Source of the DNA: a virus
Virus record (IMG/VR): IMGVR_UViG_3300045902_000726
Span: 1-51,957 of that record
Length of the DNA stretch: 51,957 bases
Direction: 5' to 3' (one strand)
Positions 6,962-47,966 of this stretch are shown one piece after another. A model generated the notes under the pieces. It ran no database searches, was not told where the DNA came from, and saw nothing but the letters and a program-made list of their open reading frames with translations. The position numbers were made by a program, and so were the translations under genes. Each line of letters begins with the position of its first letter. Position 1 is the stretch's first letter.

Positions 6962-7169
6962 GTTACGAGCATTGGAGCAACAGCTAGAGAATGATGGGAT
7001 TTACCGAGAATCTCTAATTGCTTGCATCACACAACATTACCGATCCCTTCCTATTACCGAACTAGAAGCGATCGCCCATCAGGTCATCACACCAAAGCCT
7101 CAGAATCCCGAAGTTAAATATCCACAATTAGAACTATTTCCGGTATCCGATTATGCCAACAGTCACTAA
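6954..7169 (+). CDS. Small protein with C-terminal QLELF beta-clamp-binding motif
   Basis: A 71-residue protein whose tail reads YPQLELFPVSDYANSH. QLELF matches the pentapeptide QLxLF by which polymerases, MutS and clamp loaders dock on the bacterial sliding clamp. The next gene, overlapping by 17 bases, is a sliding clamp. The first 45 residues look helical (LRALEQQLENDGIYRESL; ITELEAIAHQVI), followed by a proline-rich linker. It may be a clamp loader surrogate, a clamp regulator or a host-clamp poison; the motif is seen, the role is inferred. Start overlaps the preceding stop as ATGA. Confidence 0.65.
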   Translation: MNELRALEQQLENDGIYRESLIACITQHYRSLPITELEAIAHQVITPKPQNPEVKYPQLELFPVSDYANSH

Positions 7170-8283
7170 ATCCAAAGTTGTCTCTACGACAGTTAGCCTC
7201 AAAGACCTGCAAAAGACATTGGGGATTGTTAAAAAGGCGATCGCCCCTCGTCCATCTCACCCGATTCTTGCAACGGTGAAAATTGAGATGGATGGAACTC
7301 AGCTTAGCTTTGAAGCTTTCAATGCCGAATACGGGATTGTCTCATCCATCCCATGCACGATTGGGGAAACCTGGGCAACCTGTGTTGTCGCTAAGCAGTT
7401 TGTTGACCTTGTGAATAAACTTACAGCCGACGAGGTCACCTTGGAACTTCAAGAGTCACAATTGCTTGTCAAGGCCGGAAAGTCTAAATACTCGTTTGAG
7501 GTTATGCCCTCTGATGAATGGCCTGAAATTCCTACTCCTGATAAAGATCGCATCGCATTTACCGACGAACTTAAAGGGGCGATCGCCCATGTCTCATATT
7601 GTTACAGCAAGGAAGCATACAAAGGCGTGATTAAAGGCGTTCATGTGGGTAGCTACGGCAAGAAAATTGTTTGTGCTGCTACCGATGGGCACAGGTTGAG
7701 TTATACCGAGATCGAAGTTGTATCAGAAGTGTTTGAAACAATGATTCCCGGAGAGGCGATCGCCCTTTTCAAGGGATTGCAGGATTGGAATGAAATCGTG
7801 ATTGAGCGTGAAGGAATCTGGGCATACAGCCCTAATGCTCGGTTTTATTGCCGTGCGTTGGAAGGGCAGTATCCTATGGTCAAGCAACTGATTCCAGTCA
7901 AGTTTCAGGACTCAGTGATCTTTGATAAAGATGAATTGCTGGCTGCGTTGGAGCGGGTAAAGCTCCTGGCTGCGAAAAACTTGTTTACGATGGTGTTTGC
8001 CGATAGTGAATTAGGGACAGCAACTCTTATCCCCAAAGGGGCTGAGTTATCAGAAGAGATTGTAACAGCAAATTGGGTGAGCGATCGCCCCTTTGCGTGT
8101 GGTTTTGACGTGAATTACCTTATTGATGGGTTAAAAGCTGTCACTGAGGATTTGGTGAAGATTGGATTTAATCCCACCGACAAAGTTACCTACAACGACA
8201 TGGAAAGCGTAAGGTCTCCTGTAGTCATTTCTTCAGGAGATGGCTATCCGGTAGAGCTAATCATGCCTGCTTTTGTCCACTGA
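7153..8283 (+). CDS. dnaN: DNA polymerase III beta subunit (sliding clamp)
   Basis: A 376-residue homolog of the bacterial beta clamp, close to the usual ~370-390. The N-terminus SLKDLQKTLGIVKKAIAPRP followed by HPILATVKIEM is the family signature of domain 1. SKYSFEVMPSDEWPEIP ends domain 1 and VCAATDGHRLSYTEIEV lies in domain 2. The last residues, VELIMPAFVH, echo the usual C-terminal xMPxR segment with changes. A clamp tethers polymerase to DNA; no phage polymerase is present in this window, so it presumably recruits the host replisome. ATG start overlaps the previous gene by 17 bases. Confidence 0.93.
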   Translation: MPTVTKSKVVSTTVSLKDLQKTLGIVKKAIAPRPSHPILATVKIEMDGTQLSFEAFNAEYGIVSSIPCTIGETWATCVVAKQFVDLVNKLTADEVTLELQESQLLVKAGKSKYSFEVMPSDEWPEIPTPDKDRIAFTDELKGAIAHVSYCYSKEAYKGVIKGVHVGSYGKKIVCAATDGHRLSYTEIEVVSEVFETMIPGEAIALFKGLQDWNEIVIEREGIWAYSPNARFYCRALEGQYPMVKQLIPVKFQDSVIFDKDELLAALERVKLLAAKNLFTMVFADSELGTATLIPKGAELSEEIVTANWVSDRPFACGFDVNYLIDGLKAVTEDLVKIGFNPTDKVTYNDMESVRSPVVISSGDGYPVELIMPAFVH

Positions 8284-8916: not shown

Positions 8917-9135
8917 TCAAGCTCCCTTTTCATTCGCTCCCTCCATTGCGTCTTTAGCCCTCCTCACTGCGCTGGAAAACCCGGGACTTAATTGATGTTG
9001 CTCTAATACCTCACGAACAAAACTGGCTAGGGGCTGCCCCTTCCACCCGGCAACCAACTTAAATTCCTCCAAGGTCACGTCCGACAACGTGATTGATATC
9101 TGATTGCGATCGCCCATCGTCTCACTTTTCCCCAT
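8917..9135 (-). CDS. Ribbon-helix-helix DNA-binding protein
   Basis: A 72-residue protein with a typical ribbon-helix-helix core: beta strand RNQISITL, then SDVTLEEFKLVAGWKG and QPLASFVREVLEQH as the two helices. Such dimers bind short direct repeats and serve as plasmid partition (omega/ParG-like) or transcription regulators. The start at 9135 is chosen because GAGGGG lies six bases before it; longer starts run into Cys-rich unlikely sequence. It is transcribed away from a helically phased array of TGAC repeats that begins about 100 bases upstream, which is its most obvious candidate target. Confidence 0.75.
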   Translation of the reverse strand: MGKSETMGDRNQISITLSDVTLEEFKLVAGWKGQPLASFVREVLEQHQLSPGFSSAVRRAKDAMEGANEKGA

Positions 9136-9205
9136 TCCCATCCCCTCAATAGTGCCCTGTTGCAGAGAATTTTCATAGATACATGCTATCGCACTGCATA
9201 AAGCC

Positions 9206-9233
9206 TTGCACTTGCATGTCATTGTGCTATAGT
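9206..9233 (+). promoter_or_regulatory. Promoter for the 9288 gene
   Basis: TTGCAC, a 16-base spacer, then TATAGT preceded by TG (TGCTATAGT) form a good sigma-70 promoter with an extended -10. The predicted start of transcription, near 9240, is where the TGAC repeat array begins. Confidence 0.6.
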
Positions 9234-9236
9234 AAA

Positions 9237-9345
9237 TGACATCAGATGACAGCAAGTGACATATAAATGACAGTGAGGTGACACAAAATGACAGTCAAAT
9301 TACAGCGAGTGACAAAAACAGCATCACGAATGACAGCAAATGACA
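9237..9345. repeat. Helically phased TGAC(A) iteron array
   Basis: TGAC occurs at 9237, 9247, 9257, 9268, 9279, 9289, 9310, 9331 and 9341. The spacings are 10 or 11 bases or twice that, with degenerate units filling some gaps (TTAC at 9300). All units lie on one face of the helix. The array starts at the predicted transcription start, crosses the ATG at 9288 and continues into the coding region (codons for MTVKLQ, RVTK, SRMTAND). It resembles centromere or iteron arrays bound by RHH or Rep proteins. Confidence 0.8.
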
Positions 9346-9950
9346 TCGAGGGTTCCGTGAATCAAGTGTTTACTCAAAATCGCTACTACACATTCAAAGA
9401 GGTAGCGGAAAAGCTTAATCAAAAATCGAATACTCTTAGCGCCCGGTACTGGGCAAAAATCGCTAAAGCGTATGAAGGAAGCATGTTAACTCTTCGTACC
9501 AGTGATGGGTTAACAATGGATGGTGCAAACGCGATCGCTCAATATATTCAGTTGGTTGTAGAAGGTGGACTGGCTAAGGGCGAATACGAAGCCCTGATCC
9601 GTGAGCGCTACGGCATTGACGCACCAAAAACGAACCAAGAATACGAACAGTTTGACGCTGAATTCGTGGACGATCCCAGTCCATCAGCAGACGTGCCGTT
9701 AAGCATGGATCTGGCGTTGGCAAAGTCTGAAACCCGGCTGGTCGCAACTCAAAACAAAGTTGATGATTTGCTGGCAGATCTGGTAATTAAACATCAGTCG
9801 GTTGCTCAGCGTAGTGCACAAATTGAAACCAATGAACTTCGTTCCGTGTACGAAGAAGAGCGCCAAAAAGAAATCCTTCGGTTGATGGCACGGCAACGCG
9901 CACGGGAGGATGTACAACGGGATTTTTTGGACGCCATGGAAGATGCGTGA
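9288..9950 (+). CDS. Possible DNA-binding protein with HTH-like N-terminus and coiled coil
   Basis: A 220-residue protein of unknown family. Residues 1-22 are encoded by the TGAC array itself. FKEVAEKLNQKSNTLSARYW near 37-56 looks like a helix-turn-helix, and GANAIAQYIQLV may complete a winged domain. Acidic linker around 115-130. From about 140 to the end the protein is charged and heptad-like (ERQKEILRLMARQRAREDVQ), so probably a coiled coil. GAGG about nine bases before the ATG supports the start. Its divergent neighbour is an RHH protein and its stop is coupled to a 35-residue membrane peptide. A partition, replication-control or transfer role is possible. Confidence 0.6.
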   Translation: MTVKLQRVTKTASRMTANDIEGSVNQVFTQNRYYTFKEVAEKLNQKSNTLSARYWAKIAKAYEGSMLTLRTSDGLTMDGANAIAQYIQLVVEGGLAKGEYEALIRERYGIDAPKTNQEYEQFDAEFVDDPSPSADVPLSMDLALAKSETRLVATQNKVDDLLADLVIKHQSVAQRSAQIETNELRSVYEEERQKEILRLMARQRAREDVQRDFLDAMEDA

Positions 9951-10054
9951 TCGCTGTAATATGGGCGATCGCTTTTATCCTGCTAGGGGTTACGGGAGGG
10001 CAACTTACAAAGACTTGGAGCATGAATCATGAAAGCATTGAAAATCCTAACTAG
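9947..10054 (+). CDS. 35-aa single-span membrane peptide
   Basis: GTG start overlapping the previous stop as GTGA. The peptide begins VIAVIWAIAFILLGVTGG, a clear membrane-spanning helix, followed by a polar tail. It overlaps the next gene (10029) by 26 bases. Tight overlap on both sides supports real, coupled expression, but it is very short. It would be one of several small membrane proteins preceding the ATPase. Confidence 0.5.
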   Translation: MIAVIWAIAFILLGVTGGQLTKTWSMNHESIENPN

Positions 10055-10394
10055 CGGCATTATTGGGGCGATCGCCATTTCCTCTCTATCTGTAATGGCG
10101 TTCATGGCGGCTGAAAATGCTCGTGCCCAAGCTATCGGATTAAGTGTTGTTGATGCTGCCAAAAACAGAGGGATCGCGTTTCAAGTTGCTGCAAATTCCC
10201 TATGGATGGTCACCCCAGGCGCATTTGTGGTCTGCATCACAATCGCCTTGATGGTGCAAGACTCCAGTATCAAACGAGAGCATCTTTACCGAATTTTAGG
10301 CGGCATGTTAAACGATCCATTGTTGCCTCAGTCCACACAAGGTGCGATTGGAGAGCTTCAGGAATTCCTAAAAAGCGATCGCCCCAAAAAATGA
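10029..10394 (+). CDS. Membrane protein, two predicted spans
   Basis: A 121-residue protein. Hydrophobic helices lie at about 8-27 (SGIIGAIAISSLSVMAFM) and 60-77 (VTPGAFVVCITIALMVQ), with a short region between and a C-terminal soluble helix (IGELQEFLKS). The arrangement resembles small conjugation or secretion membrane proteins, but no family is recognised. It lies between a 35-residue membrane peptide and further membrane-anchored proteins leading to the FtsK/HerA-like ATPase. Confidence 0.6.
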   Translation: MKALKILTSGIIGAIAISSLSVMAFMAAENARAQAIGLSVVDAAKNRGIAFQVAANSLWMVTPGAFVVCITIALMVQDSSIKREHLYRILGGMLNDPLLPQSTQGAIGELQEFLKSDRPKK

Positions 10395-10458
10395 TGATGT
10401 CAACCTGTAACCCTTAAAAACTCATTAACTCTGTAACTATTTGCAAGGAGATTTAACC

Positions 10459-10602
10459 ATGTTTGATTTTTTGAAATGGCTTTTTGGTGACTTTTCTTCA
10501 AGCGAAGATGACTCTGAGTTCTACGCAGTAATGGACGAACTAGCCGCCAATTCTGTTAACTGTCGGCATTCCTTAGATCGAAACAAGGAGGAATCTAACT
10601 AA
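10459..10602 (+). CDS. Small acidic protein, 47 aa
   Basis: Starts MFDFLKWLFGDF, an aromatic amphipathic helix, followed by an acidic stretch SSSEDDSEF and a helical C-terminus. A clear AAGGAG lies eight bases before the ATG, and the next gene starts two bases after the stop. The amphipathic start could hold it at the membrane with its neighbours. No family is recognised. Confidence 0.6.
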   Translation: MFDFLKWLFGDFSSSEDDSEFYAVMDELAANSVNCRHSLDRNKEESN

Positions 10603-10604
10603 TC

Positions 10605-11468
10605 ATGCCTACCATCCCACCCAGACCAACATACGACGAGGTGCCATCCTCGGAAGCTCCATTTGTGCCTCAACAAGACGAGGTAAGCGATCGCCCATCG
10701 CAGCCTATCCAAGCGTTTTCTAGTTCATCCTGGTTTAACTGGAAAGTGGCGTTAGGGTTGTTAGTGATCGGGTTTATGATTTCTCGCTGTGGTAACGATG
10801 CGGTTGTAGTAACGAATGCCATTGATGCTCCTATAGTGCCACAAGAGCAGGCTCAACCCACACCTGATCCGGTAGTGCCACAAGCCCCGGTATATCCTCG
10901 CGAGGAGTTGGGTGCTGTAATTTCTGTAGAAAATGCCAACACAGCAGCACAGCAACAATTAGAACGAGTAAGACAAGCTGCGTTTGAATTGCGGCAAGAA
11001 GTGGACGCACTAGAGCAAGCGTCAGTGTGTCAACGGGTAGCTTATCTTCAATCAATGGCTCAAGGTGCGAGTCAGCAAGGATTGACGGGTGATGTGTTCG
11101 TTACCCAATCTCTTGCTCGTCTTAGTGGCGAAATTGATCGCATACGAGCATCAAAGGTTGGCTCCACTTATTTGAGCGGAAACGCTGAAGATATCGAAAA
11201 CGCCAGAGCAATCCTTGGTGACACCGAAGCGGTTCTACTTGTTCTCGATGCCGTGACATCCGGGCAACCGATCCCACAGTGCCCAGACATTGAACTGAGC
11301 ACATTGCAAGTTCTTTCTCTAAATCTGATCCAAGGAGTTCAGTTGTCTTCTCAATTGTCAGTAGAGGGTCAAAACCGTCAACTGTATCAACAGCAATTAG
11401 AACAACAGCAACAACCTTTGGCAACTCAACAACCTGCCCAACCTGTATCGATGGAGGGGGTTCAGTAA
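10605..11468 (+). CDS. Single-pass membrane protein with periplasmic coiled coil
   Basis: A 287-residue protein. An acidic, proline-rich N-terminus of about 42 residues is followed by a membrane span (WKVALGLLVIGFMISRCG, about 46-63), a proline-rich linker (PTPDPVVPQAPVYP), a helical charged region, and a Q-rich tail (YQQQLEQQQQ). Two cysteines (CQRVAYLQ and IPQCPDI) in the outer part could form a disulfide. The layout, N-in with a long stalk outside, resembles TrbI/VirB10-like or other envelope-spanning proteins in outline only; no sequence motif supports a family. GGAGG lies about 14 bases upstream of the ATG. The stop overlaps the ATPase start (TAATG). Confidence 0.6.
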   Translation: MPTIPPRPTYDEVPSSEAPFVPQQDEVSDRPSQPIQAFSSSSWFNWKVALGLLVIGFMISRCGNDAVVVTNAIDAPIVPQEQAQPTPDPVVPQAPVYPREELGAVISVENANTAAQQQLERVRQAAFELRQEVDALEQASVCQRVAYLQSMAQGASQQGLTGDVFVTQSLARLSGEIDRIRASKVGSTYLSGNAEDIENARAILGDTEAVLLVLDAVTSGQPIPQCPDIELSTLQVLSLNLIQGVQLSSQLSVEGQNRQLYQQQLEQQQQPLATQQPAQPVSMEGVQ

Positions 11469-12865
11469 TGACAAACGCGATCGCCCATTCCAACAACAAA
11501 ATGAATGCTTTGGTCTGCCTGTTGCTTTCCTTGTCTGGTGTTGGGTGCATCGGGTATGCGACCCAGCGAGTGCCCGAATTGCAAGGCCAACGAGTAGACG
11601 AGCAAGGGCAAATTCAGCAGCTATATCAACTCAAGCCTTCCCCTATGGCGTTTCCCGTAGGCGTGGTTGGCGTAGGTGCATTGGCAGGGGCGATCGCGTT
11701 TGCTCGTCAATCTGGAGTGAGTCTAGGCGATTTATCATCCCTTGCTGATGATGTGACTGCGCTGGTCAAAAAACAAAGTAAGCCACTAGGGGAACGTCTA
11801 TTATCTAAGGTTGTTTCTCTTAAAGTGATTCCATCTCCAGTCAAAGGGGCGATCGCCCGGTTCACCGATGATGTTCAGGAAGTAGATTGGTTTGCCGAAT
11901 TCGTTTCTCGTTCAATGTACGTTGTGGGGCGATCGGGAAGTGGTAAGACTACATTTCTACTATTCCTGCTTTACTATTTTGTGGGTGAGTTCAAGGGACA
12001 TGTGAACATCGTCCTGTGTGATCCTCACTATGGTGCGCCTGACGATGCGGGGAATATTAATTCCTGGTTTGATCTTCCCCCCGCTCAGTTCATCCGTGAT
12101 TCGTTCGACTCGATCTATGCATCGATTGACCATGAGGTGTCTGTACTGAATCAGCGCAAAAAGCAAGCATCGGACGCAGCAAAGAGGGGCGCTCACACTC
12201 CTGTTAAGTTTGAGCCTCGGTTCATCTTGGTCGATGAGTTTATTGCCTTAATGAATGAAGCGAAAACGTTGGACGAATTGGATCAGGGCACACCCAAGGC
12301 GAAGTATCAGGCAAACTTAAAGCGTTCTATTCAATTGCTGTTAGTAGAAGGCCGTAAGTACAAGATTTTTGCGGTAGTCGCATCACAGGATTTTGCCGTC
12401 GGCAGCACTGGGTTGACCACTGACATGATCAGAAATTTTAATGTGATCTTGTTGGGTCAATCCGCTGCTGTTGCCGATAACGTCCGGTACATTCCCGACA
12501 TTTCTTCAAGTGCTGAATGGATTGAGAAGATCAAAACGGCACGAGCGGCAGGGCTAACTTATTCTGCAATCGTGTCTACCCAGTCCGGGTGCAAGATCAA
12601 AACCGTCCCCATGTTCAAAGCTTCTGAAGTGAAGATTCAGCTAAATCCTAAAAACACTACAGAGCTATGGTGGGATGCCCTGCTAGAGCGAGAGGGTTTT
12701 AGCGAGTGGCTATGGGGTCATGCTGAAAAGCAATCATCCCTTAAGGCGGTTCTCGATGGTATCAAGTCTGAATGGGGTGAATCGATTGGAGGGTACAGCA
12801 AAGGCAAGCCTAAGTATGACCTGTTAAGCGAAGTATTTAGTCAAATGAAAGGTGAGGTGAATTGA
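11468..12865 (+). CDS. FtsK/HerA/VirD4-like membrane ATPase
   Basis: A 465-residue DNA-pump-type ATPase. Two N-terminal hydrophobic segments lie at about 14-30 and 60-79. Walker A GRSGSGKTT is at 154-162, Walker B RFILVDEF at 251-258, and a sensor-like VVASQDF near 303-309. The P-loop is followed by the CDPHYG motif typical of HerA/FtsK/VirD4 enzymes. Such proteins move DNA through membranes in cell division, conjugation or packaging. Packaging already has a terminase elsewhere in this genome. The surrounding genes encode membrane proteins and a cell-wall enzyme, so DNA transfer or segregation is the better guess; it has not been matched to a named family. Confidence 0.78.
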   Translation: MTNAIAHSNNKMNALVCLLLSLSGVGCIGYATQRVPELQGQRVDEQGQIQQLYQLKPSPMAFPVGVVGVGALAGAIAFARQSGVSLGDLSSLADDVTALVKKQSKPLGERLLSKVVSLKVIPSPVKGAIARFTDDVQEVDWFAEFVSRSMYVVGRSGSGKTTFLLFLLYYFVGEFKGHVNIVLCDPHYGAPDDAGNINSWFDLPPAQFIRDSFDSIYASIDHEVSVLNQRKKQASDAAKRGAHTPVKFEPRFILVDEFIALMNEAKTLDELDQGTPKAKYQANLKRSIQLLLVEGRKYKIFAVVASQDFAVGSTGLTTDMIRNFNVILLGQSAAVADNVRYIPDISSSAEWIEKIKTARAAGLTYSAIVSTQSGCKIKTVPMFKASEVKIQLNPKNTTELWWDALLEREGFSEWLWGHAEKQSSLKAVLDGIKSEWGESIGGYSKGKPKYDLLSEVFSQMKGEVN

Positions 12866-12866
12866 G

Positions 12867-13115
12867 ATGAAATTACTAGTGAACGGCATCATCGGGTTAG
12901 CGGTCATCATCGGGTTATCTTCTGTTACCCCTCCTGAATCCTGTTCCGGCACTGGTGAAGGTGTTATGGGATTTGTGACCTGCAATGCCCTCAAGGTTGG
13001 GATTTATGTAAGCAAGGGACTGTTGAGCGGGATACAGAGTTTGTATGGTGGGGGTGGGTCTGGTTCCGCCACGCTTCCTGATCAACCTGAATGGGAAGTG
13101 GAGGGACAACAATGA
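12867..13115 (+). CDS. Small secreted or membrane protein, 82 aa
   Basis: Starts one base after the ATPase stop. The N-terminus LLVNGIIGLAVIIGLSS is a signal or membrane helix. Two cysteines follow (ESCSG and VTCNAL), then a second moderately hydrophobic helix and a Gly-rich stretch YGGGGSGS. The pair of cysteines outside the membrane suggests an exported, disulfide-bonded form. No family is recognised. The stop overlaps the next ATG. Confidence 0.55.
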   Translation: MKLLVNGIIGLAVIIGLSSVTPPESCSGTGEGVMGFVTCNALKVGIYVSKGLLSGIQSLYGGGGSGSATLPDQPEWEVEGQQ

Positions 13116-13441
13116 TCGATTTAGCTATTAAATGCGTATGCGTACTTGGGTTTGGATGGTTTGTTGTTGTCACTGTTCAACCCTTTGGACTAACTCCTGA
13201 TTCAGTGACTAACGAGATACGCAATCGCATTCCTGCTGATTTGCAACAGGAAATAGAACAATTCGGTGAACCAACAATTGACGGAGGGATGCAAAACCCA
13301 GAACAAGTGCAACAGCCAGAGCAAGACCCGCCCGCATTTGACCCTTCTCGATACACGGGAAATGACTTGACACGCGATCGCGCATTGGAAGGAATTGACC
13401 CATATTTCACAGGAGGCAAAAACAATGGAGCTGCCAACTGA
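13112..13441 (+). CDS. Membrane-anchored acidic protein, 109 aa
   Basis: A membrane helix occupies about residues 3-22 (LAIKCVCVLGFGWFVVVTV), followed by a soluble, acidic and Q/P-rich tail with EQVQQPEQDPPAFDP. The start at 13112 overlaps the preceding stop (ATGA). No family is recognised. Part of the membrane-protein run that follows the ATPase; it overlaps the next start by 17 bases. Confidence 0.55.
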   Translation: MIDLAIKCVCVLGFGWFVVVTVQPFGLTPDSVTNEIRNRIPADLQQEIEQFGEPTIDGGMQNPEQVQQPEQDPPAFDPSRYTGNDLTRDRALEGIDPYFTGGKNNGAAN

Positions 13442-14369
13442 GATCGGAAATCAAAAAAAGGCGATCGCTGAATTTTGGAAGGCAGCACGGGAAGGCGATA
13501 AGAATCTAGATCTATTGCATCGTGGTGTTACCGGATTTCACAAGTTCACAAAAGATGAGCGATCACTTTGGGGGATGCTAGCTGATAAATATTCTGAGCA
13601 GTTGGCCTGGTGGGGATATCGCCCGAAGCCCAAAAACTCTCCCACTAAACCTCGCGAAAAAACTATTTCAGAGATGACCGGGAAAGAGTTCCTGTCCCTT
13701 TTGGACAAGGCAGGGAAGGCACAGCACAAACGCCAATCGCCATTGTTTAAGGGTGTGTCTCGCAGTGTCTTATCTCTTGATCCCACGCGCAAGTTTTCTA
13801 CATGGATGGCGATCGCCCTTATGGGATTAGGTATCTACTGGACTGGTAATCGCTTAGTGTGGAACTGGCAACAATTACGAGAAATGACACCACAAGAAAT
13901 TATTCAAGCGTTGTTAAATATCTCATCTATAGGCGGGGGGTTAGACATTGAAATCCCATCTCTTGAAGGATTCAGTCCAGAGCAAATTAATAATGCTGAG
14001 CAGATTATTGAGACGGGACGGGCAATGAATATGTCTGACAGGGATATTCAGATTGCCTTGATGACTGCATTACAAGAATCCTCAATGCAAAATTTAGAGC
14101 ATGGTGACGATTGGTGGTTTGCTGCCAACGGATGGGGAGTGAGCGATTCCCGTGGACTATTTCAACAGCGTGACTCATGGGGTTCTCAGGAGTGCAGGTT
14201 AGATCCAAGGTGTTCTTCTCAGTTGTTTTATAATGCTCTGTCCCAAATTGGCGATCGCGTGTCGATGGATTTGGGAGATGTGGCTCAGGCTGTGCAAAAT
14301 AGCGCATTTCCTGACCATTACGATCAGTGGGAAGATGAAGCCAAAGCATTGCTAGAGGCAAGCAAATGA
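13425..14369 (+). CDS. Lysozyme-like (muralytic) membrane protein
   Basis: A 314-residue protein. The N-terminal ~120 residues are soluble and basic. A membrane helix (WMAIALMGLGIYWTGNRLV) lies at about 126-144. The C-terminal domain matches the lysozyme-like fold seen in many actinobacterial mobile-element and tail proteins: IALMTALQESSMQNL, then SRGLFQQRDSWG, then AQAVQNSAFPDHYDQWE. E in ALQES is the expected catalytic acid. It would open peptidoglycan locally, as conjugation and secretion systems require; a lysis role is an alternative. The ATG at 13425 has GGAGG nine bases upstream. Confidence 0.75.
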   Translation: MELPTEIGNQKKAIAEFWKAAREGDKNLDLLHRGVTGFHKFTKDERSLWGMLADKYSEQLAWWGYRPKPKNSPTKPREKTISEMTGKEFLSLLDKAGKAQHKRQSPLFKGVSRSVLSLDPTRKFSTWMAIALMGLGIYWTGNRLVWNWQQLREMTPQEIIQALLNISSIGGGLDIEIPSLEGFSPEQINNAEQIIETGRAMNMSDRDIQIALMTALQESSMQNLEHGDDWWFAANGWGVSDSRGLFQQRDSWGSQECRLDPRCSSQLFYNALSQIGDRVSMDLGDVAQAVQNSAFPDHYDQWEDEAKALLEASK

Positions 14370-14746
14370 CATCAGGAATCAATCACGACCGGGGCATTCT
14401 TGCAGTAGGAACACTACTGGCGATCGCCACTACCCAAACACCGTTGCCCTACGACGGGTTTCTGATTGGTGGTTTCTTGTGGGGTGGGTGGTTCGCATCA
14501 CCTGACGTTGACACCATCAGTAAATCATCTAAGCGGTTGCCTATATGGTGGGCATACAGAGCAATATTCAAGCATCGGGGCATATCTCACACATTGTTAT
14601 TGGGGACGCTGACCAGGGTTGTTTACTGCCTGCCCCTACTGTTCCTGCTCTGGTATAACGGAGCATCACTAGGAGCGATCGCGTTTTTATTGATTGGATG
14701 GGAATTATCGGCCTGGGTTCACTATTTTCAAGATGGAATTTTATGA
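14366..14746 (+). CDS. DUF2227-like putative metal-binding membrane protein
   Basis: A 126-residue protein with conserved polar motifs between membrane helices: NHDRG near the start, ASPDVDT near 44-50, KHRGISHTLL near 69-78 and WVHYFQDG at the end. These His/Asp motifs match the YdjM/DUF2227 group of membrane-bound putative metal hydrolases, common in cyanobacteria. The substrate is unknown. Start overlaps the previous stop (ATGA) and stop overlaps the next start (ATGA), so it belongs to the same operon. Confidence 0.7.
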   Translation: MTSGINHDRGILAVGTLLAIATTQTPLPYDGFLIGGFLWGGWFASPDVDTISKSSKRLPIWWAYRAIFKHRGISHTLLLGTLTRVVYCLPLLFLLWYNGASLGAIAFLLIGWELSAWVHYFQDGIL

Positions 14747-15235: not shown

Positions 15236-16003
15236 ATGGATAAGTATTTTCAAGTAAAAGTCATTTCTCAGACATCTAATCCTCAGCAGGTTATTTATTC
15301 AGCAGCGCATCAAGATTATTCCGAGGAGTTTGTGTGGAATGATCTGCAAATTGAAGATGGTCAAATCAACAAAAGTCGTTCAAACAAAGACGAACAAAGC
15401 AACGAAGCTCACTATGGTGAACTCATTGTCAAACACTTACTAGCAGGAAACCGAGGGCATTTTGGATGTCTAGAGCATCCACAAATTGTCCTCAACTGCG
15501 GATGGTTTCCCCACAGTACAATGCAGCAAATTCGGACTCATCGTGTAGGAATTTCGTTCGACTGTCAGAGTTTTAGGTACTCTGGCACCAGGATTTTAGA
15601 CGTTGTAGAGGGGAAACGGGGCATTGAAGAGGTATTCTATCTGCGACCATTGGGCACCTATAGCGATCGCCAAGGTAAACATTACGAATACACAACTGAA
15701 TTGCGCCAACAGGATTTAGATTGGTGTTTAGCCGCATGTCATCGTTACAAAGAGCGCATTGAACAAGGATTTTCAGAAGAACATGCACGGGGCTTAATTC
15801 CCTTTGATGTACGGCAACATTGGGTGATGTCAGCGAACGTGCGATCGCTCATGCATCTGTTAGATTTGCGGTGGAAGACGGACGCACAATTAGAGTGCCA
15901 GCAACTATGCGATCTGATTTGGCCTCATTTTGAAACGTGGGTACCTCAGATCGCCGAGTGGTATTTGAAGAACAGAGCTAAGAAGGCGAGACTCGCACCC
16001 TAG
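15236..16003 (+). CDS. thyX: Flavin-dependent thymidylate synthase ThyX
   Basis: A 255-residue ThyX, which makes dTMP from dUMP using FAD, methylene-tetrahydrofolate and NADPH. The signature RTHRVGISFDCQSFRYS (about residues 102-118) matches the ThyX motif RHRxxxSxNxxSxRY in its cyanobacterial form. EHARGLIPFDVRQHWVMSAN near 182-201 is the second conserved region. Length is usual for the family. AGAGG lies eight bases before the ATG. Together with the thymidylate kinase at 47346-47966 it would raise the TTP supply for phage DNA synthesis. Confidence 0.95.
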   Translation: MDKYFQVKVISQTSNPQQVIYSAAHQDYSEEFVWNDLQIEDGQINKSRSNKDEQSNEAHYGELIVKHLLAGNRGHFGCLEHPQIVLNCGWFPHSTMQQIRTHRVGISFDCQSFRYSGTRILDVVEGKRGIEEVFYLRPLGTYSDRQGKHYEYTTELRQQDLDWCLAACHRYKERIEQGFSEEHARGLIPFDVRQHWVMSANVRSLMHLLDLRWKTDAQLECQQLCDLIWPHFETWVPQIAEWYLKNRAKKARLAP

Positions 16004-16169: not shown

Positions 16170-16541
16170 TTAAAATCCTACCTGCTTAATCAGCCTTCTA
16201 ATCTCATTGTCGGTCGCCAGAACCGAATGGGTTGTACTAAGCAACAGTGCGACCACGCTATCGACTGGCAATAGTGAAACCGATCCCCTAAGTGTTGATA
16301 GCTCTTGCTGTTGTTCTTCGGTCAACTCAGGGACTTTTAAGACATGGGCGATCGCCCCTGGCTTGCCAAATCTTTTTTCTAGAATGTGCCTATGGAATTC
16401 GGCAACATAGTTTTGCTTGGTGATCAGTATCTCGGTGGATTGCAAAAGGAGAGCGATCGCCTGTTTCCGTGTCATCCCTTTGGCGCTTTCAGTCATTAGC
16501 CGAAAGCTGAACTGTTGCTCTAGTGTGAGTTCGTTACTCAT
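16170..16541 (-). CDS. nblA: NblA-like phycobilisome degradation protein with C-terminal extension
   Basis: The first ~58 residues match NblA, the small helical adaptor that brings phycobilisomes to Clp protease: ELTLEQQFSFRLMTES, then MTRKQAIALLLQSTEIL, then TKQNYVAEFHRHILEKRFG. The family has LEQxFSLR, MSxEQAxxxLL and the RExMYxxLLK pattern at the same spacing. Known NblA proteins are about 60 residues; this one has 123, with an extra helical region from 60 onward. Some freshwater cyanophages (for example Ma-LMM01) carry nblA, thought to recycle light-harvesting protein during infection. AAGGAG lies upstream, and an operator (16572-16589) overlaps a TGCTATCAT promoter element, so expression is probably under repressor control. 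Confidence 0.85.
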   Translation of the reverse strand: MSNELTLEQQFSFRLMTESAKGMTRKQAIALLLQSTEILITKQNYVAEFHRHILEKRFGKPGAIAHVLKVPELTEEQQQELSTLRGSVSLLPVDSVVALLLSTTHSVLATDNEIRRLIKQVGF

Positions 16542-16897: not shown

Positions 16898-18449
16898 AAC
16901 CTTTCACTGCCTCAATTCGTACAGCAATGCGATCGCAAAATCCTTGCCCAACCGGATCAAACTCTTCTGAGGAAAAGAATGTAGATACCGTGTCAATATT
17001 TACGCTTGATCTGATTAGTTCTGGTTCTCCATAAACCTCTGCCAACGTGTGCATCTCCGCCGAAAATGCCCTTAATCCAAACGAGTAATAAGTTGCTGGG
17101 ATTCCTGCGATCGCCCAATCATCCAGCCTTATTTGAAATGTTTGCGCTTCAATAAATTGGAACACGCCACCGACCGCACCTTTCCTATATAAATGAAATG
17201 TGCCATTAGAGAACAACGCTTGCGTATTCAGTGCTGGGAACGTGTTGATTAAACTGTCCCCAGCATCAGGAAACACAGGAACAAAGTTTGGTTCTGTTGT
17301 TACGGCAATAGGCGTTAAGGTGTTGTCATAATTAAGCATTCGATGTTGGTATGACGACCCAGCGCCAAAATCAGGAAACAAATCTGGTGTTGATGCGGCC
17401 GGGTTTGTTGCGGTAAGACTCCACACATCTTCGACCGCTTCGGGGATAACCGCTTGAGGCCAAAACGGCTGATCCTTTCTTGCGTACAATGGCGTGAGGT
17501 TGCTTGAGCTTGTGAACAATTCGTTCGCCGAATAATACTCTCTGAAATACGGTAACCAGTTGATATAGGGCAACAATTCAGGTGGGTATGGAGACGCGAA
17601 CGGAAAAGATGGCGCGACAAAAGTTGTCATTGGAGTAGCCCTAGTTCGTTCTCTTGGCAAATACCCCGAATCACCAGGGTTTCCGGCAGCATAGTTTGGA
17701 AAGCTTAAGTATTTTCGATGAATGAATGTGGACGACGACTCTCTGATCAAGTAGGTGTCGATGTACTGACGTTCCCCTGTTGATGAACTGCCGCCTTCTT
17801 CTTGTGGAAATTCACCAAACTGATAAAACGAGATTTGAGCGATCGCCAAACTTCCACTCAAGACAGAAAACGAATGCAGATAGGATCGGGTTGATAATGG
17901 GAGTGTAATAATCCCACTGCCAGACGATCCGGGTGGTGGAAAGTAACTGACAAATGCAGAATTCTCTGGCTGCCCTAACCCGTCCCCATTCTCGTAAACG
18001 TCGCAAATCAAAAAGGGCGATTGATTAGACCGCTTCATGTACCATCTAGCCCGACTTGCCCTAATAAAGTTTCCAATCTCAGGATCGCCAGGAACATCGA
18101 TTAACGAGAAAACTGCGCAAATTTCATAGCCACTAACAATCGATTCTTCCTGCGTTCTCAGGTTGCCGTAGTCAAGTGAATACAACCCACCCTCTAACGG
18201 AATCGCCCTAACTGGTGTCCCCGGTGGCAATGCTTGATTGAACGTTTTAATCCCAATCGGTAGCTCTACTCCGTCCTCATCAATCACGCCCCACAACCCG
18301 GTTATAGGATCGCGTGAGCCAATCCTAATTACCCGCCCTTGGCTGACGCTCTCGGTTAACGCACGGGCGATCGCCTCATCCTGCTGTTGCTGATTGGCGA
18401 TCGCCCATTGCGTCAATATTTGATTGTTCAGAGATTGGCGATCGCCCAT
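16887..18449 (-). CDS. Putative tail-tip or fibre protein, 520 aa
   Basis: A large, beta-rich protein without recognised motifs. The N-terminal ~90 residues (NQQQQDEAIARALTESV, then an SH3-like GLWGVIDEDGVELPIGI) could be an attachment domain. The rest is rich in S, P, G, Y and F with few charges, as in tail fibre and receptor-binding regions. It is translated after the 246-residue protein and before a 95-residue one. Placement downstream of the large tail protein suggests baseplate or fibre; this is inferred from position and composition. Confidence 0.6.
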   Translation of the reverse strand: MGDRQSLNNQILTQWAIANQQQQDEAIARALTESVSQGRVIRIGSRDPITGLWGVIDEDGVELPIGIKTFNQALPPGTPVRAIPLEGGLYSLDYGNLRTQEESIVSGYEICAVFSLIDVPGDPEIGNFIRASRARWYMKRSNQSPFLICDVYENGDGLGQPENSAFVSYFPPPGSSGSGIITLPLSTRSYLHSFSVLSGSLAIAQISFYQFGEFPQEEGGSSSTGERQYIDTYLIRESSSTFIHRKYLSFPNYAAGNPGDSGYLPRERTRATPMTTFVAPSFPFASPYPPELLPYINWLPYFREYYSANELFTSSSNLTPLYARKDQPFWPQAVIPEAVEDVWSLTATNPAASTPDLFPDFGAGSSYQHRMLNYDNTLTPIAVTTEPNFVPVFPDAGDSLINTFPALNTQALFSNGTFHLYRKGAVGGVFQFIEAQTFQIRLDDWAIAGIPATYYSFGLRAFSAEMHTLAEVYGEPELIRSSVNIDTVSTFFSSEEFDPVGQGFCDRIAVRIEAVKGYAI

Positions 18450-31774: not shown

Positions 31775-31993
31775 ATGCAAGAAATAAACAAAGGTCGGTA
31801 TACCCCGCAATTTAGAGAGAAATCTTTTACTGCGCCCGATCTCCCATTAGGAACTCTGGCAAAAAAAACAATTGGGTTAAGGCTCCCTGTCGAGCACGAC
31901 CGAATCGTTCGGAGCATCCCGGACATGCAGGTCTGGTTAAGGCGTGTAGTCCGGGATGCTCTTATCAAAGATGGCCTTATAGGGGATCGATAA
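31775..31993 (+). CDS. Hypothetical protein, 72 aa, possible regulator
   Basis: ATG at 31775 with GGAGG about twelve bases upstream. Basic N-terminus, then LPLGTLAKKTIGLRLPVEHD and a C-terminal helix (DMQVWLRRVVRDALIKDGL). The strand TIGLRLP followed by two helices resembles a short ribbon-helix-helix fold. It is flanked by the GCGGTTAACCGC operators, so autoregulation is possible. Its end overlaps the convergent sigma factor gene by 57 bases. Confidence 0.55.
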   Translation: MQEINKGRYTPQFREKSFTAPDLPLGTLAKKTIGLRLPVEHDRIVRSIPDMQVWLRRVVRDALIKDGLIGDR

Positions 31994-33229
31994 ATGAGAC
32001 CCAGCAAGGGAAGATTCAGGAGCAGGTAAATCGCTAAAAATATCCACGTTTGCTGCTCGTCTTAATTTGCGAGTGGCAGCCACCTGAATCTGTCGAATTC
32101 GTTTACTAGATAGGTTAAGCGATCGCCCAATTTTTGCTAACGTTTCCGGGCGATCGCACCCAATCCCATAGCTTCTTTCTATCACCATCCTTTCCCGTGG
32201 TGATAAATGTTCAAGTAACTCTTCCACCATCAACTCACCCAGGCCATCACCAATCATGTATTCGGGATTGACCGGTGAATCGGCAATGAGATCCATTAAC
32301 TCGTGATCCTTTTCACCTCCCACCCCGCGATTAAGTGAGGTGGGCTTCATCGTTTGATGCAAGATATCTTGCACCTTAGAGCGCCATCCCAGATGTGCTT
32401 CAATTTCTTGGGGTGAGGGCGATCGCCCCAATTTTTGCTCTAGTTTTTCTGTCGCAATTTTAATCTCAGATGCTTTAGTAAGCATCTGAGATGACATACC
32501 GTTCTTCCAGCCTAGGGAAGCATCCAATTCTCGCATAAGGGGCGATCGCCCGTTTTGCTCGGTCAGTTCAATCTTTTTAGCTTTAACTAGCTCTTCTCGC
32601 TCCAACACCGAGCTTACGGAATAATCCCACCCGAGATATTGTTCAATCTCAATGATGGAGGGCGATCGCCCGTTTTGCTGTGCTAAAATTTGACGCGCCT
32701 TTTTGATCCGGTTCATCTTGTCCACAATATGGATGGGAATCCTGATTGTCCTGGCTTTATTATCGATGCCTCGAACAATGGATTGGCGTATCCACCAATA
32801 AGCATAGGTAGAGAATTTGTAACCTTTACTGGGGTCAAATTTAAGAACCGATGTGTGCAAACCTATAGAGCCTTCCTGAATCAGGTCTTGTAACTCCATC
32901 CCTCGGTTCTGGTACTTTTTGGCAACTGATACTACCAGACGTAGGTTAGCCTGCATCATGCGCTGGTGTGCGCGCATTCCACGGACTATCGCTCTTTTGA
33001 GTTCATCGAGCGATAGTCCAGCAAGGTTAGATAGTTCGGAGTCGAGGGGCGATCGTTTTTTCGCCTTAATAAATTTTTCCTTAGCCTTCTCGATAGCCTG
33101 CCATTTTTGAACCTGAGTAGCCAGATCTTTCTCCTGATCGGCTGACAGTAAAGGGTATCGTCCAATGCTGCGGAGATAGGTCTGGATTGAGTCTTTTGCC
33201 ATAGGGGAGGGAGTGGTTGCGTGAGACAT
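31937..33229 (-). CDS. Sigma-70 family factor with triplicated region-3 module
   Basis: A 430-residue phage-borne sigma factor. Region 1.2 lies near residues 13-40 (DSIQTYLRSIGRYPLLS). Region 2 lies near 94-160 (ANLRLVVSVAKKYQNRG, LQDLIQEGSIGL, FDPSKGYKFSTYAYWWIRQS), all as in RpoD group 1/2. Region 4 lies near 338-392 (LSPRERMVIERSYGI, ETLAKIGRSLNLSSKRIRQI). Between them, instead of one region 3, are three ~40-residue copies of a GRSPxxxEIexxLGW unit, at 177-210, 217-251 and 258-290. Each GRSP is coded by a HIP1 octamer. It would redirect host RNA polymerase, probably to phage late genes. Two operators lie immediately upstream. Confidence 0.9.
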   Translation of the reverse strand: MSHATTPSPMAKDSIQTYLRSIGRYPLLSADQEKDLATQVQKWQAIEKAKEKFIKAKKRSPLDSELSNLAGLSLDELKRAIVRGMRAHQRMMQANLRLVVSVAKKYQNRGMELQDLIQEGSIGLHTSVLKFDPSKGYKFSTYAYWWIRQSIVRGIDNKARTIRIPIHIVDKMNRIKKARQILAQQNGRSPSIIEIEQYLGWDYSVSSVLEREELVKAKKIELTEQNGRSPLMRELDASLGWKNGMSSQMLTKASEIKIATEKLEQKLGRSPSPQEIEAHLGWRSKVQDILHQTMKPTSLNRGVGGEKDHELMDLIADSPVNPEYMIGDGLGELMVEELLEHLSPRERMVIERSYGIGCDRPETLAKIGRSLNLSSKRIRQIQVAATRKLRRAANVDIFSDLPAPESSLAGSHLSIPYKAIFDKSIPDYTP

Positions 33230-37637: not shown

Positions 37638-39200
37638 TTATCCCCACCGTGCTTGCTGTGCAGTGCTTGGGCGATATCCCCCACCGCCCAGATATTTAAG
37701 TGCTTGGGTCATGGCATCTACTTGGTCGTCGTGACTGCCAGAAGGGAAGGCGCTTACCTCCGACAGGAAGTCGTTCAACCAGTATGCGTTTCTGGGCAGG
37801 TAGACGTTTCCTGATTCGATGAGAGGGGCGATCGCCCGTGCGCGTACCAGTTTTCCCCCATGAGGTTCCACTGGGATAAGCCCGGGGATGTCACGTCTAA
37901 GTGTGTCAATGACGGCTGTCCCATTCGCCTTGTCCTCCACAAGTTTTCCCACAGCCTGGGGATAACGAGTGGATAGCGATCGGATGGCTGTGAGTGTTTG
38001 AGTAAACGGTAGCTTCTCTCTGAGTTGATCCAACAGGTAAAAGTTGGCTCCCACCTTCCCCCATACTTGCCCAACCACATAATCGGAGGTGTCAAGTCCC
38101 TTAAATGCACAGTCCCAGGATTGGATCAGTAATTCAAAATCCCACAATTCTTTAACGGGTAGCTCATCGTAGTATTGCCACCATGAGCGCTTGATTTCGC
38201 CACCCGCTTTAGATGTTGGGCGCTGCTGATATAGCGCTTGCCAGTCGTAATCGCCCATTGAAGCTTTGCGCTTCAGCAGCTTAGGTAATGGATATTTGGC
38301 ACTCCACATTGCCTCCCCTTCTTGTCGTGGATCGTCCGGGTGCAAGTCCCCTTCAGCGATCGCAGGTATCTCTAGAACGTGCCACTGGTCAGCGTTGGGA
38401 TCTGATTCGGCTAACGACTTAAGCCATCCCGACAAATCATCGTCGTGCCATCGGGTAGCCATGACAACGATCGGTGCTTCCGTGGTGTTGCCGTCCTTGT
38501 CCTCGAAGCCACCCTCTTCTCTGGTTAAAAACGTAGAAGTGTACCAATCCTTAGCTTTTTGTCGATAGGTAGGTGAGTCAGCTTCAGCACGGTTTTTAAT
38601 GGGGTCGTCAATGATTCCAATCCCCCCTACAATCGATCGCCCCAAGGTTGGATGAATGATTGGGTCACCACCAAAACCCATCCCTGTGATACCACCTCCA
38701 ACACCAGCGCACCGATAGGAGCCGGAATGATTGACCACTTCAAAGATTTCTGAATTTCGCAAGTATGAACCATGAGCGTCAGCCCTGACATTTTTCCCGC
38801 TCAGCGTTGTAGCAGGAAAAATGTCGCGATAGGCTTGACTGTCGATGATTCGTTGAACGTCCCTATTGTTGCGAGATGCCAAATCAGAGCTATAAGACGT
38901 GGCGATGATTTGGGCATCGGGATTGAGTCCTAACAGGTAGGCAGGCAGGCGACGGGAGACAAGTTCCGTTTTACCTGCGCGGGGATGCACCGAGATGAGC
39001 AGTCGGGATATTTCGCCAAAGACAAGGCGATCGCAGTATTTGCAAATCAGTTCATGGTGCCAACTAGTTCGATAGTTGGCTTTGGTTTGGGTAGTGAAGG
39101 CAAGGAGGTTCTCAGGTGGTTTGATCTGAGGGGCGATCGCCTGTGAATTCTCTGGAGAAGATTTCTCGAACGCTCTTCCTAAAGCTGCTAAATTCGCCAT
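37638..39200 (-). CDS. terL: Terminase large subunit
   Basis: A 520-residue DNA-packaging motor. ATPase: Walker A-like SVHPRAGKTEL near 69-79, Walker B GIGIIDDPIK near 196-205, and the coupling motif IVVMATRWHDDDL near 244-256. Nuclease: D in QSWDCAFKGLDTSDY, the acid in LVEDKANG, and D in SHDDQVDAMTQALKYL near the end. These match the Terminase_6 type. It packages concatemers into the prohead through the portal at 39734. The start overlaps the small subunit gene by 89 bases. The gene runs opposite to the head genes. Confidence 0.95.
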   Translation of the reverse strand: MANLAALGRAFEKSSPENSQAIAPQIKPPENLLAFTTQTKANYRTSWHHELICKYCDRLVFGEISRLLISVHPRAGKTELVSRRLPAYLLGLNPDAQIIATSYSSDLASRNNRDVQRIIDSQAYRDIFPATTLSGKNVRADAHGSYLRNSEIFEVVNHSGSYRCAGVGGGITGMGFGGDPIIHPTLGRSIVGGIGIIDDPIKNRAEADSPTYRQKAKDWYTSTFLTREEGGFEDKDGNTTEAPIVVMATRWHDDDLSGWLKSLAESDPNADQWHVLEIPAIAEGDLHPDDPRQEGEAMWSAKYPLPKLLKRKASMGDYDWQALYQQRPTSKAGGEIKRSWWQYYDELPVKELWDFELLIQSWDCAFKGLDTSDYVVGQVWGKVGANFYLLDQLREKLPFTQTLTAIRSLSTRYPQAVGKLVEDKANGTAVIDTLRRDIPGLIPVEPHGGKLVRARAIAPLIESGNVYLPRNAYWLNDFLSEVSAFPSGSHDDQVDAMTQALKYLGGGGYRPSTAQQARWG

Positions 39201-47345: not shown

Positions 47346-47966
47346 TTACACTGCAATTTTCCAGGCTTTAGCGCGACGGGCGATCGCCCCCTTTACCTGC
47401 TCAAACACTTCATCCTCGGTACCATTGCCGTCTATGCGCTCGTGAGCAACACCGCACCATTTCCGAAGTGTCCTGCAATATGCGTTTTGGCACTGGCGAT
47501 AAAGCTCAAATGGTTTGCTGTCCATGCGATCGCCCTTTGCTCTTGCTTTAGCTGCAAAAGGCTCTGTGTCAATCCATAGGGTTAGATTAGGATGGATCTG
47601 TTGGGATGCCTCGATGCATCGATGGGCAACCATCCATTCTTCTATCCCTCCCAGAATCGACTGATAGACCACGGTGGAATACCACCACCGATCGCATATT
47701 ACGATTTGGTTGTTCTCCAAGGCAGGAATAATCACTTCATGAACATGTTGCACCCTATCGGCAAGAAACAAATAGAATTCGGCTTCGGGCAATAGCTCAC
47801 CCCCATTCAATAAAATCTCCCTGACTTTTACACCAAGTTGTGTTCCCCCAGGCTGCCGGGTAAGAATCGGGTTTCTGTCAGGGGCGATCGCCCGTAACCA
47901 CTCGTAGGTTTTTTGAGCCTGGGTAGACTTTCCAGACCCATCGATCCCTTCAAAAACGATCAGCAT
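47346..47966 (-). CDS. tmk: Thymidylate kinase
   Basis: A 206-residue dTMP kinase: P-loop VFEGIDGSGKSTQAQ at 4-18, TRQPGGTQLG near 36-45 (the DR/TREPG element), YLFLADRVQH near 67-76, and VICDRWWYSTVVYQS near 88-102 (the DRY motif has WW). It makes dTDP from dTMP, the step after ThyX. The window thus encodes two steps of thymidine nucleotide synthesis. The lid has KARAKGDRMD. Length is normal. Confidence 0.95.
   Translation of the reverse strand: MLIVFEGIDGSGKSTQAQKTYEWLRAIAPDRNPILTRQPGGTQLGVKVREILLNGGELLPEAEFYLFLADRVQHVHEVIIPALENNQIVICDRWWYSTVVYQSILGGIEEWMVAHRCIEASQQIHPNLTLWIDTEPFAAKARAKGDRMDSKPFELYRQCQNAYCRTLRKWCGVAHERIDGNGTEDEVFEQVKGAIARRAKAWKIAV

Follow-up and report, generated by a model that had tools for sequence, protein, structure and literature searches.

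The stretch of DNA studied here, called the window below, is the whole of the IMG/VR virus record IMGVR_UViG_3300045902_000726 (51,957 bp), and our subject is a compact module of genes between positions 8,917 and 14,746 that is built around a membrane-anchored ATPase (Table 1). The record has a 127-bp direct terminal repeat, and its last open reading frame (ORF) runs on into the first; it was therefore taken as a complete genome. Because it encodes terminase, capsid, portal-like, tape-measure and tail genes and contains 153 HIP1 octamers and an NblA gene, we assigned it to a tailed phage of a cyanobacterium. The module sits in the DNA-metabolism cluster of this genome, apart from the virion genes, and the same arrangement was seen in the Planktothrix phage PaV-LD.

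Table 1. Genes and sites of the module and its upstream region in the window (RHH, ribbon-helix-helix; HTH, helix-turn-helix; TM, transmembrane segment; aa, amino acids)
Feature	Position	Strand	Basis or remark
RHH-type DNA-binding protein	8917..9117	-	sequence pattern ISITLSDVTLEEFKLVAGWKGQPLASFVREVLEQ; weak CopG match, E 0.05
Array of nine TGACA and one TTACA, phased 10-11 bp	9237..9345	.	between the RHH gene and the module
HTH and coiled-coil protein	9330..9950	+	ORF opens at 9288; without family match
Gene B, two-TM protein, 121 aa	10029..10394	+	hydropathy; positional counterparts in eight other loci
49-aa ORF, not conserved	10453..10602	+	ORF list, locus comparison
Gene C, bitopic, N-terminus inside, one TM at about 51-69, helical outer domain	10605..11468	+	
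Gene D, membrane-anchored FtsK/HerA-superfamily ATPase, 465 aa	11468..12865	+	motifs, profiles, fold
Gene E, one-TM protein, 82 aa	12867..13115	+	hydropathy; positional counterparts
Gene F, one-TM protein, 109 aa	13112..13441	+	hydropathy; slot of PaV-LD ORF124 ('holin')
Gene G, peptidoglycan hydrolase, lysozyme-like outer domain	13425..14369	+	profile matches
DUF2227/YdjM-like membrane protein	14366..14746	+	E 4e-18; facultative end gene

Between 10605 and 14746, each gene abuts or overlaps the next. An earlier note on this DNA had described an RHH gene, a repeat array and the genes up to the DUF2227-like one as a single tight operon. The gene positions were as claimed, but three points needed correcting. 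The RHH gene is encoded on the minus strand and points away from the operon, from which the array separates it, so it is not part of that operon. The array runs into the 220-aa HTH/coiled-coil gene as annotated, although this gene may start only at 9330. The DUF2227 gene, also found in the Mu-like prophage L072/L055 (tblastn E 3e-9), is facultative. The RHH protein has about 66 residues counted from MGDR, with its real start probably near 9117, and a longer TTG-start ORF reaches 9255. It was assigned from its sequence pattern, the profile support being weak. Divergent RHH genes were also present 5' of the module in the phages L073 (7719-7979) and L097 (7065-7349). Family and profile searches with the HTH/coiled-coil protein gave no match, and the proteins in this slot at different loci could not be aligned as a single family.

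Gene D contains a Walker A motif, VVGRSGSGKTT (K160), and a Walker B motif, FILVDE (D256/E257), and hydropathy revealed two N-terminal hydrophobic segments (residues 14-32 and 60-78). With 11.2 bits, it did not reach the curated cut-off of 24 for PF01580 FtsK_SpoIIIE, a domain also unmatched in some of its relatives, and its Pfam matches, DUF87/HerA and Pox_A32, were all below threshold. Since the Pfam FtsK_SpoIIIE match was sub-threshold, the likeness to FtsK comes from fold comparison and profile search. An AlphaFold model built from 15 homologues (predicted local distance difference test score, pLDDT, 68, and about 80-90 in the motor) adopted an FtsK-type RecA-like motor fold with an N-terminal transmembrane anchor. 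Its best Foldseek match was the E. coli FtsK motor (2ius, E 4.5e-6), followed by TcpA of pCW3 (E 6e-5), and the viral A32/B204 packaging ATPases ranked below these two. The C-terminal 70 or so residues, where TraB has a winged-helix domain that reads 8-bp repeats, were modelled as four helices with no clear wing. A gene D profile run against PDB sequences retrieved EccC, HerA and FtsK; phmmer against the PDB gave no meaningful match, and no match of the module ATPase to VirB4 rose above noise. Of the families named for a profile check in the earlier note, FtsK and TcpA were nearest in fold; the FtsK_SpoIIIE cut-off was missed and TraB was not a relative.

Scans of viral and genome contigs with the single gene D sequence found no match, and alignments were required. 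Homologues were recognised by tblastn in PaV-LD (E 5e-14) and in two plasmids of Oscillatoria acuminata PCC 6304 (E 6e-28 and 1e-29). A profile of these three ATPases and that of the window recovered nine core-family genomes among 391 of the same order, each with E <1e-57, and 15 viral loci. The plasmid clade was firm in the ATPase tree, where the window stood on a long branch without firm placement. More distant ATPases occurred in Nostoc phage A1 (L103:35972-37564, AND75622; E 4e-16), with small transmembrane and coiled-coil genes adjoining and no wall enzymes, and in Nodularia phage kac65v161 (E 2e-5), without the wall-enzyme block. A second cyanobacterial ATPase group of about 680-700 aa matched the profile weakly (L026, L040-L046), and the protein at L059:8380-10428 has a true FtsK_SpoIIIE domain (E 2e-12).

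Around each complete core homologue we found a two-transmembrane protein, a bitopic protein, the ATPase, one or two small transmembrane proteins and a tethered wall hydrolase, in the order kept by the window (B, C, ATPase, two small transmembrane proteins, transmembrane wall hydrolase). The exceptions were L051, a chromosomal copy that seems degraded 3' of the ATPase, and L052, which ends at a contig end. Gene B resembled its positional counterparts weakly in sequence. Gene C of the window was linked to L054 by tblastn (E 2e-5) and to the plasmid group by hhalign (E 2.5e-4), a weaker link than that between the gene C proteins of the plasmids and the PaV-LD group, which are homologous (hhalign E 6e-7). 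The gene C model was all-helical and of low confidence (pLDDT 54), too poor for structure comparison. In gene G, the N-terminus is predicted to be cytosolic, and a single probable transmembrane segment at about 125-145 falls slightly below threshold. Its lysozyme-like domain matched PHROG endolysin and tape-measure lysozyme profiles (E 1e-33 to 1e-12), and Pfam SLT_3 at only 0.003.

The wall hydrolases are non-homologous between loci: M23 and GH108 are fused in the plasmids and neighbours in PaV-LD, M23 and SLT are neighbours in L072 and G139, M23, SLT and trypsin are fused in L073 and L097, and the window has the lysozyme-like domain alone. They were always membrane-tethered wall cutters, usually a peptidase with a glycosidase, and every locus with a complete 3' end had one. 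A required wall-opening step would account for an enzyme that varies while its role stays constant. The trypsin-like domain of the fused proteins (L073:11555-13492 and L097:11591-13315; M23, SLT and Trypsin_2) was recognised at E 1e-22 to 1e-25. IscB-like (RuvC/HNH) genes lie in or beside the module at L054:7745-9019 and L097:5662-6936, and a TnpB-like gene lies near the L097 module; homing into the module is possible.

The module is portable. It occurs on at least four unlike phage backbones, namely the window, PaV-LD-like phages, a Mu-like phage and two larger siphophage-like genomes (L073 and L097), which have their own tail and terminase-like genes; in a related prophage, L054, it adjoins tail genes. 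The Mu-like element is a transposable cyanobacterial prophage with the full module (L072, contig IMGVR_UViG_3300034631_000070, and L055), recognised by a MuB-like ATPase, a gp16-like gene and a Mu-type terminase. The search of cyanobacterial plasmids suggested in the earlier note also succeeded: the block is carried by the complete circular O. acuminata plasmids pOSCIL6304.01 and pOSCIL6304.02 and by Laspinema/Oscillatoria contigs. The plasmid-like contig G139:C10, which has the module together with ParA, restriction-modification genes and recombinases, showed no virion gene among its listed ORFs. Profile and protein searches found no terminase in the Oscillatoria plasmids. For pOSCIL6304.01 (64 kb, typed non-mobilizable), a PHROG scan of 39 proteins gave integrase, primase, antirepressor and ParA, with no virion family among the matches listed (25 of 54 PHROG families) and no relaxase or VirB4 in its other proteins among the matches listed (25 of 63 Pfam families). 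The literature that we searched, subscription journals lying outside the search, contained no description of the module as a unit.

The array upstream of the module is far beyond chance. Its TGACA sites (9237, 9247, 9257, 9268, 9279, 9289, 9310, 9331 and 9341, with TTACA at 9300) are always spaced by 10, 11 or 21 bp, and no more than four TGACA fell within 115 bp in any of 200 first-order-Markov simulations of the whole window. A phased chain as long was found in about 0.03% of random 220-bp windows from the collected loci. Repeats phased at 10-11 bp lie directly upstream of the module in five independent lineages, each with its own motif (TGACA in the window, CCAC in L097, GGAAC/GTTCC in L073, AGACC in the plasmids and GAACA in L054) and each uncommon in the background (0.03-2%); the upstream regions searched were picked by eye. 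Such a pattern is expected of a cis site whose DNA-binding protein co-evolves with it, as in parC, or of an operator.

Partition genes accompany the module in several of its bearers. The operon opens with ParM and then a 71-aa RHH-like gene in the Oscillatoria plasmids, successive genes overlapping; at L002, ParM and ParR-like genes lead the overlapping ORFs 16934-17944, 17944-18159 and 18156-18446. A ParM-ParR-like pair heads the operon in the Oscillatoria/Laspinema plasmids and in one phage, L097, whose ParM is homologous to that of the plasmids (E 5e-18). These genes occupy the slot of the HTH/coiled-coil gene, which is present in L073, a near relative of L097, as in the window. The combination of ParM actin, RHH protein and iterons was complete in L001/L002 and L097. 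The window had the RHH-like gene and iterons, and no ParM was found among the Pfam families of its proteins. Its array and RHH gene resemble a ParMRC-type centromere or operator no less than they resemble clt.

The module is real, conserved and portable, and from its genes we infer its function, including a hexameric motor, a DNA substrate, the direction of movement, binding to the array and a cell-to-cell step. Its probable role is the movement of DNA across the cell envelope, not the assembly or release of virions. We hold at about even strength the more specific reading that it is a portable translocation module found in phages and plasmids whose hosts are mainly filamentous cyanobacteria, and that it takes the element's own double-stranded DNA (dsDNA) across membrane and wall, the most likely destination being the next cell of the filament. 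The head cassette would mark the element's own DNA through the phased array, bound by the RHH protein, the HTH/coiled-coil protein or both (ParM/ParR-like proteins in other members), and might position it at the pole, which in a filament is the septum. The DNA would then be handed to a hexameric FtsK/TcpA-like motor D in the cytoplasmic membrane, working with C, B, E and F; the tethered hydrolases (G) would open the septal peptidoglycan, and the motor would pump the double-stranded element DNA across to the neighbour. Anabaena filaments have a continuous outer membrane, and their cytoplasmic membranes are separated by the septal wall (PMC9426583). Such a machine would cross just two cytoplasmic membranes and the septal wall. 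Because the cells of a filament have one common outer membrane, spread along the trichome would be the most likely use, and its continuity would make sense of a missing outer-membrane part; no outer-membrane component, VirB6 or pilin was recognised in the window.

HetR is typical of filamentous cyanobacteria. It was present in all nine core-family genomes, compared with 239 of the 391 genomes (61%) of the order, a suggestive link to filamentous hosts. Several points weigh against the proposed transfer between filament cells. Five of the nine HetR bearers belong to one lineage, leaving about five independent cases (p ~0.08). No array was detected in five lineages (L072, L065, L003, L061 and L053), and pOSCIL6304.02 carries a MOBP relaxase. 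EccC, matched by the gene D profile, is a protein-secretion motor, so that, judged by sequence alone, the substrate might be a protein.

Four other explanations were considered. In septal segregation, the motor would clear or partition element DNA where the septum closes within one and the same mother cell, as FtsK/SpoIIIE do, and the hydrolases would remodel the septum, making the module a stability system rather than a means of spread. The ParM/ParR-like genes that head the operon in the plasmids and L097, the resemblance of the phased arrays to parC and the FtsK-like motor all suit this possibility, which we nevertheless regard as rather unlikely: partition does not need a tethered peptidase and glycosidase pair, the plasmids already have ParA, and the translocase block is kept in phage lineages without ParM. 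A lysis cassette, with the small transmembrane proteins as holins, the hydrolases as endolysins and the ATPase as a passenger, appears improbable. PaV-LD ORF123 (M23, with a transmembrane segment) and ORF124 were called endopeptidase and holin because they inhibit growth when expressed in E. coli and Synechocystis (PMC9096620), and the window has no other recognised endolysin. However, these two genes lie inside the module, four and three genes past the ATPase, and any tethered wall hydrolase would be expected to be toxic when overexpressed, a transfer-associated one included, so the toxicity data fit lysis and transfer alike. The module always includes the ATPase and the bitopic protein, and in the window and PaV-LD it is placed among DNA-metabolism genes. 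Neither lysis nor a virion role can account for the plasmid bearers, since they lack recognised virion genes. A virion or packaging motor was likewise rejected for the ATPase. As the earlier note had stated, the phage has its own terminase, whose large subunit (37638-39200; PHROG 38, E 7e-113, the capsid protein being found at E 1e-75 in the same profile search) is separate from gene D, and packaging motors are separate from the module ATPase in PaV-LD too. The ATPase did not group with packaging proteins, nor was the block confined to virion genes, the outcomes that would have spoken against that note.

Export or conjugative donation beyond the filament, by a TdtA-like mechanism or a minimal coupling system with an unrecognised or trans-acting relaxase, seems a little less probable still. 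TdtA, an FtsK-HerA hexamer of a mobile element, is required for DNA donation (PMC5365140), and both the MOBP relaxase of pOSCIL6304.02 and the TcpA fold match could be read in this way. Most bearers have no annotated relaxase, though, and the Pfam families of the other window proteins included no VirB4, relaxase or other part of a type IV secretion system (T4SS), in agreement with the earlier note; donation would also have to manage without the envelope parts not recognised in the window. A protein secretion, exclusion or defence complex with an EccC/HerA-type ATPase is very unlikely. It draws on the EccC and HerA profile matches and on weak PADLOC matches to mad8/HerA, and we saw no secreted effector, nuclease, SIR2/DUF4297 partner or PADLOC partner gene beside them; the partition genes and arrays next to the module point to DNA. 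Defence was rejected as a role, its only trace being these weak HerA/mad8 matches.

Among the other genes of the window, the NblA phycobilisome-degradation auxiliary gene (16170-16541, minus strand) has its PaV-LD counterpart in ORF022. The phage also encodes a DnaN sliding clamp (7153-8283), ThyX (15236-16003), thymidylate kinase (47346-47966) and, on the minus strand at 31937-33229, a 430-aa factor of sigma-70 type that contains repeated inserted segments (PHROG 351, E 1e-72).

Among the closest known systems, PaV-LD ORF122-128 has a homologous ATPase and identical gene order. It differs in that M23 and GH108 replace the lysozyme-like domain, and it was published solely as endopeptidase and holin lysis genes; the plain lysis-pair reading of ORF123/124 is put in question by our comparison. 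The tcp system of Clostridium perfringens pCW3, for which dsDNA transport has been suggested (PMC12857230), shares the TcpA-like fold and a wall hydrolase partner. Unlike it, the module has no recognised VirB4, VirB6, VirB8 or relaxase, and gene C, modelled as all-helical at low confidence, is not VirB8-like. Thermus TdtA/ICEth1 transjugation also employs an FtsK-HerA superfamily motor on a mobile element without a canonical T4SS, but the partners of TdtA are a NurA-like nuclease and a restriction enzyme, with no wall hydrolase block (PMC5365140). Type II ParMRC partition is matched by the ParM homologue, small RHH-like gene and upstream 10-11-bp iterons of the Oscillatoria plasmids and L097, whereas the module continues straight into translocase and wall-enzyme genes, and the window has the HTH/coiled-coil gene instead of ParM. 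Cyanobacteria were not mentioned in a 2025 review of T4SSs (PMC12857230).

The best-known cases of dsDNA transfer by a single motor come from Streptomyces and related bacteria. There, a single FtsK-like TraB reads 8-bp repeats, small diverse Spd membrane proteins serve spread through septa (PMC4170104), and plasmid-phages occur (PMC4170104, PMC12857230). The earlier note had likened the module to TraB with its clt repeats, and the logic is indeed similar. Both have a single motor of FtsK fold, short repeats in cis and clustered small membrane proteins of diverse kinds; the window has neither relaxase nor VirB4, the hosts are filamentous, and plasmid-phages are among the element types. TraB is a parallel and not a relative, since the module ATPase falls outside FtsK_SpoIIIE (11 bits against 24). 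The module further differs in its dedicated wall hydrolases, its ParM/ParR-like or HTH/coiled-coil head genes, its diderm cyanobacterial hosts and its 10-11-bp phased repeats of varying motif, and transfer is here deduced from the genes. It is possible, although we consider it doubtful, that viruses and plasmids of filamentous cyanobacteria encode a dedicated, virion-free machine for cell-to-cell dsDNA movement through the septal wall, a counterpart of the movement proteins of plant viruses. More generally, an unrelated module of the same logic, equipped with wall cutters and partition genes of its own and common to phages and plasmids in a further mycelium-like group of bacteria, would suggest repeated selection by filamentous growth for DNA that spreads along the filament; an ATPase annotated merely as 'FtsK/SpoIIIE' also gains a testable use.

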